This document shows, in pieces, positions 1,567 through 34,776 of a DNA stretch of 34,776 nucleotides. A program made the translations under genes and the position numbers. Every line of letters begins with the position of its first letter. Position 1 is the first letter of the stretch. The notes under the pieces were generated by a model. That model searched no databases. It was not told where the DNA came from and saw only the letters and a program-made list of their open reading frames with translations. The stretch spans positions 1 to 34,776 of the forward strand of contig CAUYTY010000192.1 of assembly GCA_963575655.1 (NCBI GenBank), written 5' to 3'. Source of the stretch: Gammaproteobacteria bacterium. GTDB lineage: Bacteria > Pseudomonadota > Gammaproteobacteria > CAIRSR01.

Positions 1567-1989
1567 ATGGCGGTAGTTTATAGACACATAAGAGAAGACA
1601 CCAATGAGGTGTTTTATATTGGGATTGGGAAGACAGATAAAAGAGCATATGAAAAAAATCGACATAGGAGTGATTTTTGGAAAAATATTGCTAAAAATGG
1701 GTTTAAGGTTGATATTATTTTTGATGACTTAACTTGGGAAGAGGCGGGTGAAAAGGAAAAGGAATTCATATTATTATATGGTAGAAAAGATAAAGGATTG
1801 GGAAGTTTAGTTAATATGACTGACGGAGGTGACGGAGGATATGGTATCATCGTAAAGGAGGGAACAAAAGAAAAAATAAGATTATTCCAACTATCACTTA
1901 ATAAAAAAGGAAAACCGGGTAGAAAACAATCAAGTGAAATTAGAGAAAAAATAAAAAAAAATCACCCAAAGTTGCTACCTATGCGGTGA
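1567..1989 (+). CDS. GIY-YIG endonuclease with NUMOD3-like motif, C-terminus replaced by a repeat element
   Basis: The N-terminus has the GIY-YIG nuclease signature in its VYRH...VFYIGIGK form, followed by a short helix-rich core with EKEKEFILLYGR and the NMTDGGDGG segment common in phage homing nucleases of this family. Residues ~115-133 (GKPGRKQSSEIREKIKKNH) resemble the NUMOD3 DNA-binding motif, which is often repeated downstream in intact proteins. The reading frame then runs into the terminal sequence of the miniature element that starts at 1964. The last residues (PKLLPMR) and the stop at 1987-1989 are supplied by that element. The protein is therefore truncated relative to the family. 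Its neighbours are AT-rich and phage- or Bacteroidetes-like. The function would be site-specific DNA cleavage, and activity of this truncated form is doubtful. Confidence 0.7.
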   Translation: MAVVYRHIREDTNEVFYIGIGKTDKRAYEKNRHRSDFWKNIAKNGFKVDIIFDDLTWEEAGEKEKEFILLYGRKDKGLGSLVNMTDGGDGGYGIIVKEGTKEKIRLFQLSLNKKGKPGRKQSSEIREKIKKNHPKLLPMR

Positions 1990-2110
1990 GAAACAAAAAA
2001 GCCCCCCCCCCCCCGGGAGAGGGGTTGGGGTGAGGGCGGGAATTTGTTGATTTGTCAGTATCACGCCCTCACCCCCGGCCCCTCTCCCGGAGGGAGAGGG
2101 GAGAAAAGCG
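1964..2110 (+). mobile_element. Truncated copy A of the ACCCAAGTTGC miniature element
   Basis: From 1964 the sequence matches the element at 7008 almost base for base in the same orientation. It has the terminus (with one extra A), the GCGGTGAGAAAC block and the two palindromic GC-rich arms around CCCTCTCCC/GGGAGAGGGG. The match stops at GAGAAAAGCG (2101-2110), so the right inverted terminus is missing. The left side lacks the TA dinucleotide that flanks intact copies. A run of 13 C at 2002-2014 replaces CCCCTCTCCCCC of the sister copy. It marks the junction between the AT-rich segment and the remaining chromosome. Confidence 0.75.
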
Positions 2111-2192
2111 CTATTTTCGTTCCCCCTCCCAACGAGAGGAGGAGCGATACAACTTTACGTTAGTGGCCATCCAACCTGGGGGCAGAGTCATC

Positions 2193-3359
2193 ATGAATAA
2201 GGTATTGATCAGCTTTCTTGGCAAGGCAAGAAAGGAAGATAACGGAAAATATCGTACTGCTCGCTATCGATTCGACAATGGAACGGTAGAAGAAACCCGT
2301 TATTTCGGACAAGCCTTGGCGAAACAGTTACCACTGGATAAGGTGATTCTTCTCGGTACCCAAGGCAGCATGTGGGATGTGCTGATGGATGATCTGGGAC
2401 AAGGCGAAGAATTCGCCGAGGATCGCCTAGCACTAATCGACGAGGTGGATAATAATCAGGTGCAAGAAAGCCGATTGGAAATACTTACTCCCCTGCTAAC
2501 ACGGAAAATTGGAAAACCTTGCCGATTACGCCTTATCCCTTTTGGGCGCAACGAAGAGGAGCAGACTCGAATCCTGGAAATATTAACCAACGAAGTGAAT
2601 GAAGGAGATGATGTTTATCTCGATGTGACCCATGGTTTTCGGCACCTGCCCATGCTGGGATTGCTGAGCGCATTGTATCTGCGCACGGTGAAGGAAGTAT
2701 CCATCCAAGGGTTGTATTACGGCGCATTGGATATGTTGGATAAAAATACTGGGGAAACCCCGGTGTTGCGTTTGGATGGATTATTGACCATCGCCGATTG
2801 GATTGGCGCTATTGCTCGTTATGACCAAAGTGGTGATTATGGAGTATTCGCGCCCTTGCTATCCAATCATCTAAAAACGGATACGTTGAAGCTCGCTTCT
2901 TTTTACGAACGCACGAGTAATTCAGTAAAGGCCAAGGTACAGCTCTCAACATTCCATGGCTTATTCAAAAATGTAGAGTTATCTTCGATTGCCCGCCTAT
3001 TCCGCGCCCCCTTGGAAAAGAGAATTGCATGGTTTAAGGAAAATGATCGTGCTAAAAGAGAATGGGAACTTGCCGAAAGATATCTTGAGAGGAAAGATTT
3101 TCTGCGCGCAACTATTTTCGGTTATGAATCCCTCGTAACCAAAGAAACATCCAAACGTAAATCTGATATTCACGACTTTGCCGAGCGCAAAAGTTCTGCG
3201 GAATCATTGAAAAAAGAACATAGAGACTTCAAAGAATTAGAATATCTTCGCAACGCTATGGCGCACGGGCTTCGGTCTGGGAAAAAAGAAATCAGTGACT
3301 CGTTGGATTCAGAAAGTGGTCTGGTAGAAAAGATCAAGAAATTATTCAAGAAACTCTAA
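2193..3359 (+). CDS. csx2: CRISPR-associated CARF-HEPN protein with DxTHG motif (Csx1/Csx2, TM1812-like)
   Basis: The family binds cyclic oligoadenylate, made by Cas10 during type III interference, through an N-terminal CARF domain and then degrades RNA with a C-terminal HEPN domain. The N-terminus (MNKVLISFLGKAR, then RYRFDNG) matches the TM1812-type opening. The diagnostic DVTHGFRHLP lies at residues 144-153. The HEPN catalytic signature RNAMAH is at residues 353-358, R and H being the expected RNase pair. I chose ATG 2193 because the upstream in-frame extension to 2052 is translated repeat element. The protein is 388 residues. It sits 14 bp upstream of cas1 in one orientation, so the three genes look like one transcript. 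No Cas10 is present in the window, so the signal would have to be made elsewhere. The exact subfamily name is less certain than the CARF-HEPN assignment. Confidence 0.85.
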   Translation: MNKVLISFLGKARKEDNGKYRTARYRFDNGTVEETRYFGQALAKQLPLDKVILLGTQGSMWDVLMDDLGQGEEFAEDRLALIDEVDNNQVQESRLEILTPLLTRKIGKPCRLRLIPFGRNEEEQTRILEILTNEVNEGDDVYLDVTHGFRHLPMLGLLSALYLRTVKEVSIQGLYYGALDMLDKNTGETPVLRLDGLLTIADWIGAIARYDQSGDYGVFAPLLSNHLKTDTLKLASFYERTSNSVKAKVQLSTFHGLFKNVELSSIARLFRAPLEKRIAWFKENDRAKREWELAERYLERKDFLRATIFGYESLVTKETSKRKSDIHDFAERKSSAESLKKEHRDFKELEYLRNAMAHGLRSGKKEISDSLDSESGLVEKIKKLFKKL

Positions 3360-3373
3360 ATTTGTGAACCATT

Positions 3374-4411
3374 ATGCCTACCCTCTATGTAACCGAGCCT
3401 GGAGCGACGGTACGGATCTTTGGGGAAAGCCTGCGCGTAACAGCGGAAGGGAATCGTGGTGATCGCGCTGCCTCTACCTCGCAACGTGCATTACTGGAGA
3501 TTGCGCCACACCGTCTAGAACTAATTGGATTGGTGGGGCGAGTACATATTACCCTGGATGCCCTTAAACTCTGCCAGGAAAAAGGGATTGGGGTAGCTTG
3601 GTTTTCCTGGAATGGTCGATTTTTAGGGCGGATGGTTCCTGCGGCAGCACGTTCCGGTGATCTACGTTTAGCTCAATATCGGGTCATGGTGGATACCCAT
3701 ACCGCGATACAATTTGCACGAACAGTAATCACCGCAAAATGTTCCAACGCAGTGGCTGTTCTGCGGAGAATTCAATCCAATCAGCCAGGATTGGAGGAAG
3801 TATCTAAGGCTTTACGAAAATTGGTGGACATTCAGGAGAAAATCGTAGATTGCGATAATTCCGAAGAATTGTTAGGGTTGGAGGGACATGCGGCGAGTCA
3901 CTATTTTTCAGCCTTGGGAAGTGGATTTCGTGGTGAGATTGAATTCAGCACGAGGCAACGACGCCCACCTCCTGACCCGGCCAATGCCTTACTTTCGTTT
4001 GGATATGTTTTACTAGGTAATCTGATCGGCGGGCATATCGAAGCGCGAGGATTAGATCCCACTCTGGGTTTTCTTCACGCAATACGATCTGGTCGGGCTA
4101 GTCTGGCGTTAGATTTGTTGGAAGAGTTTCGGCATCCTATCGTGGATCGGTTTGTGATGCGCGTGTGCAATCTTCGCATTATTCAAATTAATATGTTTGA
4201 AGCTGATCCAGAAAATAGTGGTGGAGTACGTTTAACTCAGGATGGATTGAAGAAATTCTTTAAAGCCTGGGGCGAATATCTCGAACGACCTATTCAGGAA
4301 GATGGTGCGGAGAAAATAACCCCTACTGCCTTGATTTATCGCCAGGTGAATCGCTTGGCGATGGCTTTCCGAGGTGATACTACCTATCAGCCATTTCTGT
4401 TTGAGCATTGA
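3374..4411 (+). CDS. cas1: CRISPR-associated endonuclease Cas1
   Basis: This is the metal-dependent integrase that, with Cas2, inserts new spacers at the leader end of the array. The protein is 345 residues, normal for the family. The catalytic residues are visible: Glu170 in LLGLEGHAASHYF, His235 in LDPTLGFLHAIRSGR, and the acidic pair 250-251 in LALDLLEEFRHP. The N-terminal beta domain (TLYVTEPGATVRIFGESL) and the all-alpha C-terminal domain are both complete. The family style (EGxAAxxYF, GFLHxxRxGRxSLALDL) is that of Cas1 found with type I-C/I-D/III loci rather than I-E/I-F. It lies 14 bp after the CARF-HEPN gene and 17 bp before cas2. Confidence 0.97.
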   Translation: MPTLYVTEPGATVRIFGESLRVTAEGNRGDRAASTSQRALLEIAPHRLELIGLVGRVHITLDALKLCQEKGIGVAWFSWNGRFLGRMVPAAARSGDLRLAQYRVMVDTHTAIQFARTVITAKCSNAVAVLRRIQSNQPGLEEVSKALRKLVDIQEKIVDCDNSEELLGLEGHAASHYFSALGSGFRGEIEFSTRQRRPPPDPANALLSFGYVLLGNLIGGHIEARGLDPTLGFLHAIRSGRASLALDLLEEFRHPIVDRFVMRVCNLRIIQINMFEADPENSGGVRLTQDGLKKFFKAWGEYLERPIQEDGAEKITPTALIYRQVNRLAMAFRGDTTYQPFLFEH

Positions 4412-4428: not shown

Positions 4429-4719
4429 ATGAATCATTCTATGCGTTATATCATTTGCTATGACGTAAGTGACAATAAACGGCGACGTCATCTTTCGATG
4501 TGCTTAAGCGGTTATGGTGATCGAGTACAAGAGAGCGTCTTTGAGGCGGTTTTAGACCGTACACTCTTTGAAAAAATGATCAGCGATGTTGAAAAGCAGA
4601 TTAAGCGTACAGTGGATACGGTACGAATCTATCCTCTTTGTGGAGTATGTACTAATAAGGTAGTGCAGTTAGGAGTATCTGTTAATAAGCATCAAGAAGA
4701 TATTGTATTTGTCGTTTGA
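4429..4719 (+). CDS. cas2: CRISPR-associated protein Cas2
   Basis: Cas2 forms the central dimer of the Cas1-Cas2 spacer integration complex. This 96-residue protein has the ferredoxin-like opening YIICYDVSDNKRR with the conserved Asp12, then GDRVQESVFEA and RIYPLCGVC, all standard Cas2 signatures. ATG 4441 (residue 5, MRYIICYD) is an equally good start, and most Cas2 proteins begin at that point. The cas1-cas2 junction contains an exact tandem duplication of TTGACTAGAAA (4408-4418 and 4419-4429) that includes the cas1 stop codon. No strong ribosome binding site is visible, which fits translational coupling to cas1. The leader and array follow directly. Confidence 0.95.
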   Translation: MNHSMRYIICYDVSDNKRRRHLSMCLSGYGDRVQESVFEAVLDRTLFEKMISDVEKQIKRTVDTVRIYPLCGVCTNKVVQLGVSVNKHQEDIVFVV

Positions 4720-5029
4720 ACGCGGGATACTTTCCGTAACATGGAATCGTGCCTTTTCGAGGGGCAGTTACGAAAAGCGACTTGGAGTGATTATAAACAC
4801 CACATGTTGTGGTTAGTTCTAAGCGGAACAGAACCCCTAGGATCTATTTTAAGATATTAGCGTGTGTAAGATATTGTTTCATCACAAAGAATATTTGAAC
4901 AGATTAGTTGGTTTTTAGCCTATTGCCACCTTTTTTAAGAGTGTATTAATGTGGAAAATGACATCTTTTTAGACGTTACGAAAAGTGTTTTACATTCTTC
5001 ATAGATTCTAGTATGTTGCCAGGGAGTGG
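4720..5029 (+). promoter_or_regulatory. CRISPR leader
   Basis: This 310-bp AT-rich stretch has no gene and lies between cas2 and the first repeat. An 11-bp direct repeat, GTTACGAAAAG, occurs at 4767-4777 and 4975-4985. The array polarity (see the CRISPR entry) shows that new spacers enter at this side, so it should hold the array promoter and the integration signals. A TTTTAC...TAGTAT pair near 4990-5016 could be a promoter, but the spacing of about 15 is short. I cannot place the start of transcription. Confidence 0.7.
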
Positions 5030-7232
5030 CCTGAAGTAATCGCCCCGCCTGAAAGGGGATTGCGACTCGATATCGCTTTTAGCTAACGCATCGTATGCAG
5101 ACTTTACCTGAAGTAATCGCCCCGCCTGAAAGGGGATTGCGACAATCCAGTTGTTAACACATTTGCGTTGGTTATTGCACGCACCTGAAGTAATCGCCCC
5201 GCCTGAAAGGGGATTGCGACAAGCATTGAATAACTTCGGCGCGAATTATACTTAATATGTCCTGAAGTAATCGCCCCGCCTGAAAGGGGATTGCGACCTC
5301 TCTCAATGTCTTCCTTAGATAAGCACCATCTCCCACCTGAAGTAATCGCCCCGCCTGAAAGGGGATTGCGACCAATACATTCCTTTGCAAGTAGTTGATT
5401 ATCTTCGCAACCCTGAAGTAATCGCCCCGCCTGAAAGGGGATTGCGACATGAATGGTGCGTGCACCAAGAAACTCTAAAATCATCTTTCCTGAAGTAATC
5501 GCCCCGCCTGAAAGGGGATTGCGACCTCACGAAAATCCCCTGATTCCCTCGAAAGAAAAGTTGTTTCGCCCGAAGTAATCGCCCCGCCTGAAAGGGGATT
5601 GCGACTTTCTCTATATCCTTCCGTGTGAGACACCACTTCCCTTGACCCGAAGTAATCGCCCCGCCTGAAAGGGGATTGCGACCAGATGGGAAAATTTGAA
5701 TCCCAGATACCCGTATATAGACTCCCGAAGTAATCGCCCCGCCTGAAAGGGGATTGCGACCTCACGAAAATCCCTTCGAAAGTCAGATAATCTTCTTTTC
5801 CCGAAGTAATCGCCCCGCCTGAAAGGGGATTGCGACCCCTCTTCCTGATCCTCCATGCCCTCAACCTACCTTTCCCGAAGTAATCGCCCCGCCTGAAAGG
5901 GGATTGCGACACGACGTACATGTGAGTCATACAACCCTTTTTTTTAAAACCCGAAGTAATCGCCCCGCCTGAAAGGGGATTGCGACTTTATTTCTTCAAC
6001 CCTTATAAAAACCGTACCTTTAAGGACCCGAAGTAATCGCCCCGCCTGAAAGGGGATTGCGACATAACTGCACGGTGTACCCGTGCGGTTTCATCCACCT
6101 CCCCCCGAAGTAATCGCCCCGCCTGAAAGGGGATTGCGACCTTTTTCCAGCCTTTCCTTGGCCTCCTCGATGTCTTCACGCCCGAAGTAATCGCCCCGCC
6201 TGAAAGGGGATTGCGACGTAGACGGGGTGACCCCCTGTCGCGACGACGGCCAGAAAATCCCGAAGTAATCGCCCCGCCTGAAAGGGGATTGCGACACATC
6301 GAGCTCCATCTCTGTACCTGAGTCCTCCTCATACCCGAAGTAATCGCCCCGCCTGAAAGGGGATTGCGACGAAAAATAGTCGGAAATATCTAACGGATGT
6401 TCCTCACTAAACCCGAAGTAATCGCCCCGCCTGAAAGGGGATTGCGACCGTCATAGAACATCCAGTCCGGGTATTCTGAGGAACACTCCCCCGAAGTAAT
6501 CGCCCCGCCTGAAAGGGGATTGCGACCCTTCCTTCCGTGCTCATCAATGAACTCTATGCTGATCCCGAAGTAATCGCCCCGCCTGAAAGGGGATTGCGAC
6601 CATAATGAGAGTTTCAGGGCTTGGATTGTCAGACATTTTCCCGAAGTAATCGCCCCGCCTGAAAGGGGATTGCGACCAGCGATATTTCTATCGCCGCCGT
6701 TCGGTATAGAGAATAGCCCGAAGTAATCGCCCCGCCTGAAAGGGGATTGCGACCGCAGCGCCCAATTCCGACAACGATGGATTTACAATTGGTTCCCGAA
6801 GTAATCGCCCCGCCTGAAAGGGGATTGCGACCCCCTTAGGTTTATCCCTATATCTCCGTACTCCCTGCCCTTCCCGAAGTAATCGCCCCGCCTGAAAGGG
6901 GATTGCGACTCATCAGACATTTTCAATCACCTCGCCATCTTCTTTAGTCCCGAAGTAATCGCCCCGCCTGAAAGGGGATTGCGACAAAAACGATTACGTT
7001 ATAGTTAACCCAAGTTGCTACCTATGCGGTGAGAAACGAAAAAGCCCCTCTCCCCCGGGAGAGGGGTTGGGGTGAGGGCGGGAATTTGTTGATTCGTCAG
7101 CATCACGCCCTCACCCCCTGCCCCTCTCCCGGAGGGAGAGGGGAGAAAAGCGTGCTAGGTAGCAACTTGGGTTAGTTACGGAAGATATCCCCCATCCCGA
7201 AGTAATCGCCCCGCCTGAAAGGGGATTGCGAC
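5030..7232 (+). CRISPR. CRISPR array, 27 repeats of 37 nt, 26 spacers, last spacer split by a miniature element
   Basis: The repeat unit begins CC(T/C)GAAGTAATCGCCCC and ends AAAGGGGATTGCGAC. It contains a CCCC/GGGG stem and an ATTGCGAC tail that would give an 8-nt 5' crRNA handle of the type III style. Repeats start at 5030, 5107, 5184, 5261, 5336, 5412, 5489, 5569, 5646, 5724, 5800, 5874, 5950, 6027, 6104, 6181, 6259, 6334, 6412, 6490, 6564, 6640, 6717, 6795, 6873, 6949 and 7196. Undisturbed spacers are 37-43 nt. Position 3 of the repeat is T in repeats 1-7 and C in repeats 8-27. Because new repeats are copied from the leader-proximal one, this places the growing end at the left, next to cas2. 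The long lightly related spacers, the handle, and the adjacent CARF-HEPN gene favour type III crRNAs. Confidence 0.98.
7008..7172 (+). mobile_element. Intact miniature element (copy B) inserted in CRISPR spacer 26
   Basis: This 165-bp element has perfect inverted ends. ACCCAAGTTGCTACCTA is on the left and its complement TAGGTAGCAACTTGGGT on the right. It is flanked on both sides by TA (7006-7007 and 7173-7174), the target duplication expected for IS630/Tc1-mariner-type transposition. The core holds two GC-rich palindromes (CCCTCTCCC...GGGAGAGGGG and a CCTCACCCC-type arm) and no gene. Removing it with one TA restores a 43-nt spacer between repeats 26 and 27. No transposase of its own is present, so it would be moved in trans. 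Confidence 0.9.
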
Positions 7233-7377: not shown

Positions 7378-8063
7378 GCGTTGCAAAGGGCATGTAACAC
7401 ACCAAATTCCGCTTATTGCCCGCGCTTGGCCTTACTCGTCGAATTTGATGAAGAATGGGCATTCGGGAAAATCTATCTGACCATCAGCCCTAACTACCCA
7501 TCCATTGGAAAGTTATTGCAGCTTTTACAGAAAGTTGGTTGCTCTATCTTATTGAACGGACGAGTTTTATAAGACCATTGTGTCCCCTGCTTATGCGATG
7601 GCCACGTGGAGCGTCGTCGAGGTACAACCCGAAGCAATTTCCCCACGTACCCTAACTAACCTGAGTTCGACGTAGGGGATGATGTAACCTGCTGTATCAG
7701 CTAGGCTTAATTAGATTCCAACAAAAAAGTCAACTATTGATTTGACCTACACCAGCTTTGCCCACGACCCTGCCCCAAGTCGTGCTTGGCAGATGCGTCC
7801 TATCCCCCCATTAGCCATACGTGTACACCTCCGTTGTAAAATGGAAATTTCCGCTTGCCTGTGCTCCTGTGCGAAAATCCACCCCGCTGATGCGGTCGGT
7901 CCCCGTTTTAGGGTTCCCCTCCGGGATACTCTCATTACTCCCCATAGCAGCGATTCACTATCCCCTGTTTTACGGGGGGAGAGTACGCAAATTCGCCAAA
8001 CTTCGGGTACCCAACTGCGTCATACCAAAATTCTTGTGAGTAATTCTTAGGAAAAACGAGACC
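7378..8063. other. Non-coding stretch between CRISPR array and ppdK
   Basis: Nothing here supports a real gene. Short open frames, including one of 63 codons from 7381 beginning with TTG, have no recognisable motif and no ribosome binding site. The stretch probably contains the ppdK promoter. AGGA at 8049-8052 is the ribosome binding site for the ppdK start at 8064. Confidence 0.5.
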
Positions 8064-17330: not shown

Positions 17331-17419
17331 ACCCAAGTTGCTACCTAGCGCGCTTTTTTCCCCTCTCCCTCAGGGAGAGGGGCTTCTTCATTTCTCGCCG
17401 CATAGGTAGCAACTTGGGT
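17331..17419 (-). mobile_element. Miniature element copy C (89 bp)
   Basis: Perfect 17-bp inverted ends (ACCCAAGTTGCTACCTA and complement) flanked by TA at 17329-17330 and 17420-17421. The short core has one palindrome, CCCCTCTCCCT/AGGGAGAGGGG. It is the same subtype as the copy at 34590 but in the opposite direction. It sits in the 450-bp gap upstream of the chemotaxis receptor and downstream of trmL, where it could affect transcript ends. Confidence 0.88.
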
Positions 17420-20030: not shown

Positions 20031-20176
20031 ACCCAAGTTGCCACCTATTCAAAATTCGGGATCGCATTCAATCGTCCCCCCTCAATCCCCCCGTAAACGG
20101 GGGGAGGTCTGCGGCCTACTCCCTCCCCGTTTACGGGGAGGGCTGGGGAGGGGGGCAAGTAGGTGGCAACTTGGGT
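20031..20176 (+). mobile_element. Miniature element copy D (146 bp)
   Basis: Inverted ends ACCCAAGTTGCCACCTA and the near-complement TAGGTGGCAACTTGGGT are flanked by TA at 20029-20030 and 20177-20178. The core has palindromic arms built from CCCCGTAAACGGGG-type sequence, different from copies A-C. It ends 6 bp before the stop codon of the SapC gene, so its hairpin probably forms the end of that transcript. Confidence 0.88.
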
Positions 20177-34589: not shown

Positions 34590-34678
34590 ACCCAAGTTGC
34601 TACCTATGCGGTGAGAAACGAAAAAACCCCTCTCTCCCCGGGAAAGGGGAGAAGAGCGCACTAGGTAGCAACTTGAGT
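34590..34678 (+). mobile_element. Miniature element copy E (89 bp)
   Basis: Left end ACCCAAGTTGCTACCTA, right end TAGGTAGCAACTTGAGT with one mismatch, flanked by TA at 34588-34589 and 34679-34680. The core resembles copy C in the opposite direction. It begins 88 bp after the secA stop. The preceding ATAGGTGGTAACTGAGATTA (34565-34584) looks like the decayed end of another copy. Confidence 0.85.
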
Positions 34679-34726: not shown

Positions 34727-34776
34727 ACCCAAGTTGCCACCTACTTGCCCCCTCCCCAGCCCTCCCCGTAAACGGG
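34727..34776 (-). mobile_element. Miniature element copy F, cut by the window edge
   Basis: TA at 34725-34726 is followed by ACCCAAGTTGCCACCTACTTGC and the CCCTCCCCAGCCCTCCCC core. This matches the reverse complement of copy D at 20031, so it is the same subtype in opposite orientation. Its other end lies beyond the window. Confidence 0.8.

Follow-up and report, generated by a model that had tools for sequence, protein, structure and literature searches.

Organization of the CRISPR-Cas locus

The window, by which we mean the whole 34,776-nt stretch of DNA that was analyzed, carries a CRISPR array preceded by cas1, cas2, and a gene for a CARF protein of the TM1812 family (Table 1). The open reading frame listed for the CARF protein begins with TTG at position 2052. 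Because this start lies inside an old copy of the miniature transposon (MITE) described below and the family match begins only at residue 51, the true start of the gene is probably the ATG given in Table 1. Further upstream, the protein encoded at positions 77–1222 has a C-terminal sorting domain of the Por secretion system (PF18962), which is unusual in a genome that groups with gammaproteobacterial Thiotrichales. An intact set of type III-A effector genes, namely csm1 (cas10), csm2, csm3, csm4, csm5, cas6, and an NE0113-type csm6, was found on another contig of the same genome (C221). Since no other array has the same repeat, we infer that the effector genes on C221 serve this array and that the system is of type III-A. 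The contig with the csm operon also encodes a protein with many near-identical repeats, SILSDIRAQLSLLEGG... (G000:C221, L154 1-4338).

Table 1. Positions of the features in the window
Feature	Position	Strand	Remarks
Older truncated MITE copy, same family	1963-2113		immediately precedes the TM1812/Csx1-like CARF gene
CARF protein gene, TM1812/Csx1 family	2196..3359	+	probable start at ATG 2196
cas1	3374..4411	+	
cas2	4429..4719	+	
Promoter-like site	4989..5017	+	immediately 5' of repeat 1, on the leader side; matches the consensus weakly
CRISPR array	5030..7232	+	27 repeats of 37 nt, 26 spacers
Repeat 26	6949..6985	+	intact
Interrupted spacer 26	6986..7195	+	210 nt; 39 nt without the element and one copy of the target site duplication
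Target site duplication, left copy	7002..7007	.	TAGTTA, flush with the element
MITE, 165 bp	7008..7172	+	non-autonomous, IS982-type ends; within spacer 26
Left terminal inverted repeat	7008..7024	+	ACCCAAGTTGCTACCTA; 17/17, perfect
Terminator-like hairpin in the MITE	7045..7066	-	CTTTTTC tail; reads against the array
Right terminal inverted repeat	7156..7172	-	TAGGTAGCAACTTGGGT; exact reverse complement of the left end
Target site duplication, right copy	7173..7178	.	TAGTTA, flush with the element
Repeat 27, terminal	7196..7232	+	intact
Other MITEs sharing the ends of this element (89- and 146-bp types)	17331-17419, 20031-20176, 34590-34678, 34727-34776		target site duplications TAACTA, TACCTA, TAAATA; the last is cut off by the window end

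The repeats of the array are identical over their last 34 nt (27/27), and spacers 1–25 are 37–43 nt long with a mode of 40. All 27 copies of the repeat in the genome lie within this array, and no second array with the same repeat was found. The repeats start with CCT in repeats 1–7 and with CCC in repeats 8–27, so that the first variant forms a contiguous block on the leader side. Spacers 7 (5526–5568) and 10 (5761–5799) have their first 14 nt in common (CTCACGAAAATCCC), which suggests two acquisitions at the same point from related targets. The 3' end of the repeat is ATTGCGAC, which corresponds to the 8-nt 5' handle of Thermus type III crRNAs. This repeat end, together with the promoter-like site just before repeat 1, indicates that the array is most likely read from left to right and that spacer 26 is leader-distal. 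A search of 56 genomes found the same array in none of the relatives and no strain with an empty array.

Structure of the element in spacer 26

The initial annotation described spacer 26 as a spacer of 210 nt, against 37–43 nt for the others, that is interrupted by a 165-bp element with perfect inverted ends and lies between intact repeats. Measurement of the array confirmed the lengths, and repeats 26 and 27 as well as the two 17-nt ends proved to be as described. No open reading frame of at least 80 amino acids overlaps the element, and a transposase gene is absent from it. The flanking repeat had been given as TA and the restored spacer as 43 nt, and both statements required correction. The direct repeat is the 6-bp sequence TAGTTA, and 6–8 bp is typical of the element family. 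Once the element and one copy of TAGTTA are removed, the empty spacer reads AAAAACGATTACGTTATAGTTACGGAAGATATCCCCCAT and measures 39 nt, one less than the modal length of 40; the value of 43 nt arises if only TA is removed.

The element, its ends, and the duplication support the earlier proposal that a miniature transposon was inserted after the spacer had been acquired. Acquisition by Cas1–Cas2 of a single, abnormally long spacer from a MITE-bearing replicon is a reading that we regard as practically negligible: every other spacer of the array is 37–43 nt long, and the extra DNA is bounded exactly by mobile-element ends with a target duplication. A protospacer of spacer 26 that would distinguish between 39 and 43 nt was sought as well. 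Neither half of spacer 26 has an exact 20-nt match in IMG/VR, and no spacer match was found in phage or plasmid records; of the two weak hits, the one to a phage falls within the hairpin of the MITE, and the one to a plasmid spans 28 nt.

The MITE family and its target sites

The genome is a draft of 4.2 Mb in 261 contigs. A BLAST search of it found about 30 full or partial relatives of the long type of the element. When up to three mismatches were allowed, 366 copies of the end sequence were counted on one strand of the whole genome and 358 on the other, versus 5 and 3 for the reversed pattern, which shows that the element is no chance arrangement. As these counts are far above the control, the genome is estimated to hold several hundred elements of the family, with size classes near 89, 145, and 165 bp. 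To sample the family, 55 complete elements were collected from parts of this genome. Of these, 35 are flanked by exact, flush duplications of 6–8 bp (6 bp, n = 27; 7 bp, n = 7; 8 bp, n = 1), whereas a duplication of at least 6 bp is expected in 5.8% when the right flanks are shuffled among the elements. The duplications of these 35 elements almost always read TANNTA or TANNNTA. The frequency and the pattern led us to conclude that the family duplicates 6–8 bp and that TA is merely the invariant border of the target. The other 20 elements show TA only or no flush repeat, and they have probably been recombined, mutated, or misassembled. The relatives, the hundreds of end copies, and the duplications identify the element in spacer 26 as a MITE.

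These data also bear on the integrity of the assembly. A short-read assembler may have fused unrelated contig ends through the repeated MITE, in which case the array end and the downstream DNA would not be neighbors. The draft state of the genome, in which many contig ends lie inside these MITEs, is in favor of such an artefact. However, a flush 6-bp direct repeat seldom results from a false join, as the shuffled flanks indicate, and the join would need an extra repeat with an identical 34-nt core, spaced for a 39-nt spacer, although all copies of the repeat belong to one array. We thus consider an artefact at this locus to be very unlikely.

The copy in spacer 26 differs from a 166-bp family consensus, built from 20 copies, by two substitutions and one single-base deletion. 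Because other copies carry up to 23 substitutions, it ranks among the youngest members of the family, and its insertion appears to be fairly recent. Relatives of the element at about 77% identity are present in a sister species of the genus, and the same ends with a TAGTTA flank were found in metagenome-assembled genomes (MAGs) named Pseudanabaena, Chamaesiphon, Poribacteria, Armatimonadetes, and uncultured Thiotrichales bacterium. MITEs of about 115–280 bp with the same end sequence occur in cyanobacterial, Armatimonadetes, and Poribacteria MAGs (L091, L093, L096, L097, L098, and L101), some of them with a TANNTA duplication. A crude periodicity check saw no other CRISPR array beside the sampled MITE copies, and a literature search for the end sequence returned no relevant paper.

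Candidate transposase

Elements of the IS982 family have ends starting with AC, direct repeats of 2–10 bp, and lengths of 845–1282 bp, and their end consensus is AC(N)6T(N)5TT (PMC7335449). The MITE end ACCCAAGTTGCTACCTA contains AC(N)6T and lacks the final TT, and the 6–8 bp duplications fall inside the published range. A counterpart was found in the sister species, where an intact 1,205-bp element (G001:C329, L113 1369-2573) encodes a 275-codon IS982 transposase frame that is recognized by NF033520 (189 bits versus a cut-off of 130) and by Pfam DDE_Tnp_1_3. Its ends, ACCTAAGTTGCTACCTA and ACTCAAGTTGCCACCTA, differ from those of the MITE at one and two of 17 positions, and it is flanked by an 8-bp target site duplication, TAAAATTA. 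The same sister-species contig (L113/L116) holds two tandem IS982 copies; a MITE that shares these ends has disrupted one of them. Because the ends are shared with an IS982 element, we infer that the MITE was mobilized in trans by a related insertion sequence.

In the genome of the window, an IS982 copy with the end ACCCAAGTTGCCACCTA is present on C250 and is cut short at the contig end. No intact IS982 copy with exactly the ends of the MITE was found in this draft, and the active transposase may have been lost, may be unassembled, or may be a related one. The intact resident IS982 elements carry other ends (ACCTGAGTTCGACGTAAG), and their duplication, TAGGTA, is a TANNTA site. A solo end of this other resident type, ACCTGAGTTCGACGTAGG, lies at 7659–7676, about 430 bp past the array and preceded by TAACTA; it is a second IS982-type relic. 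Two other candidates were rejected: an IS1-like transposase beside one family end (L045/L070), whose intact copies have other ends (GGTGGTGYCTTACGTTGACCTAA), and IS1-like chimeras with 145-bp MITEs (L077-L088), which are truncated or recombined.

The TA given in the initial annotation would correspond to a TA-duplicating transposase of the IS630/Tc1 type, an assignment that the duplication length and the matching ends replace with an IS982-like one. A MITE of the IS630/Tc1-mariner type with an empty spacer of 43 nt would agree with the TA on both sides of the element, and the genome does have intact IS630-type transposases (DDE_3). Nevertheless, the exact 6–8 bp duplications in 35 of the 55 family members contradict it, and the matching ends are located on IS982 elements and not on the IS630 copies seen. 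We therefore regard the IS630/Tc1 assignment as highly improbable. The explanation that we hold to be very probably correct is that an IS982-family DDE transposase mobilized the 165-bp MITE in trans into a TAGTTA site in spacer 26, at the leader-distal end of a type III-A array, and that those six bases were duplicated.

Target choice within the array

The array before the insertion had six TANNTA sites, located in spacers 1, 3, 4, 9, 18, and 26, and none in the repeats. Its sole TANNNTA site was also in spacer 26. With so few preferred sites and none within the repeats, an insertion into spacer 26 that leaves both adjoining repeats intact requires no selection, and the repeats would have been spared simply for want of a preferred target site. 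The earlier suggestion that the oldest spacer was hit because its loss costs least thus found no support, since target choice alone suffices. The last spacer may be the cheapest one to lose.

Consequences for the crRNA and the transcript

The crRNA of unit 26 would share only the first 22 nt with the original spacer and continue into transposon sequence, and the loss of this guide, and with it of the corresponding memory, is most likely. Spacers 1–25 are transcribed upstream of the MITE and should be unaffected. The entire unit is predicted to fold as a single long rod (−130 kcal/mol, z −12.4), and a transcript end of the array altered by this fold, as had been proposed, is plausible. The terminator-like hairpin is directed against the array; no such site was found on the sense strand. 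The hairpin region is common to the aligned family copies, suggesting that each MITE insertion may bring a one-way terminator with it.

These structures allow a more speculative reading, in which the insertion was kept as beneficial. The minus-strand hairpin (7066–7045) would keep antisense transcription out of the array, or the transcript end would be stabilized by the RNA rod; hairpin and rod would act as a 3' boundary, so that insertions at the trailer end are favored or tolerated. The terminator-like site and the stability of the fold are what such a function would build on. However, the occurrence of the hairpin region in the aligned family copies makes it a property of the element and not of the spacer 26 site, and the young age of the copy and the availability of one of six sites are explanation enough. 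We accordingly hold a beneficial role to be very improbable.

Relation to known systems

A MITE in a CRISPR spacer is a known phenomenon, and the present case is a well-resolved example, not a new class of system. In Haloquadratum walsbyi HBSQ001, the MITE HqIRS37 was reported in 2011 to lie within a CRISPR spacer, and the ancestral spacer was reconstructed (PMC3119063). As in the present array, removal of the element recovers the ancestral spacer; the HqIRS37 case, however, concerns an archaeon, a remnant array without cas genes, and a spacer near the leader, whereas the present insertion affects the last spacer of a type III-A system that belongs to a bacterium and has cas genes. An IS982-derived MITE of about 240 bp, originating from ISCca4, has been described in the genome of the endosymbiont Cardinium cOegib (PMC9769881). 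It resembles the present family in being short, lacking a transposase, reaching high copy number, and having ends similar to those of an IS982-family insertion sequence, but the present element is 165 bp long and its intact parent was not found in the genome.

Insertions of insertion sequences and MITEs in cas genes have been catalogued (PMC10359306), and they likewise illustrate damage to CRISPR-Cas loci by mobile elements. Those insertions inactivate the system, whereas here a single spacer is hit and the system is formally complete. The large sulfur bacterium Thiomargarita nelsonii is also rich in MITEs, which have 10-bp direct repeats and no parental insertion sequence found (PMC4853749). 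The two genomes are alike in their very high MITE load and in insertions in functional loci, but the elements belong to different families.

The array preserves a clean insertion record from which the 39-nt empty spacer can be recovered. The target rule, TANNTA or TANNNTA with a duplication of 6–8 bp, has been measured over 55 elements, and a MITE family with some 360 end copies per strand can be assigned a probable transposase family. The locus also illustrates that target-site preference by itself can generate an apparent story about the oldest spacer. For the organism, the MITE insertion likely represents the loss of a single memory from a type III-A system that is bacterial and has cas genes; the probable cost to the cell would be only one old memory.
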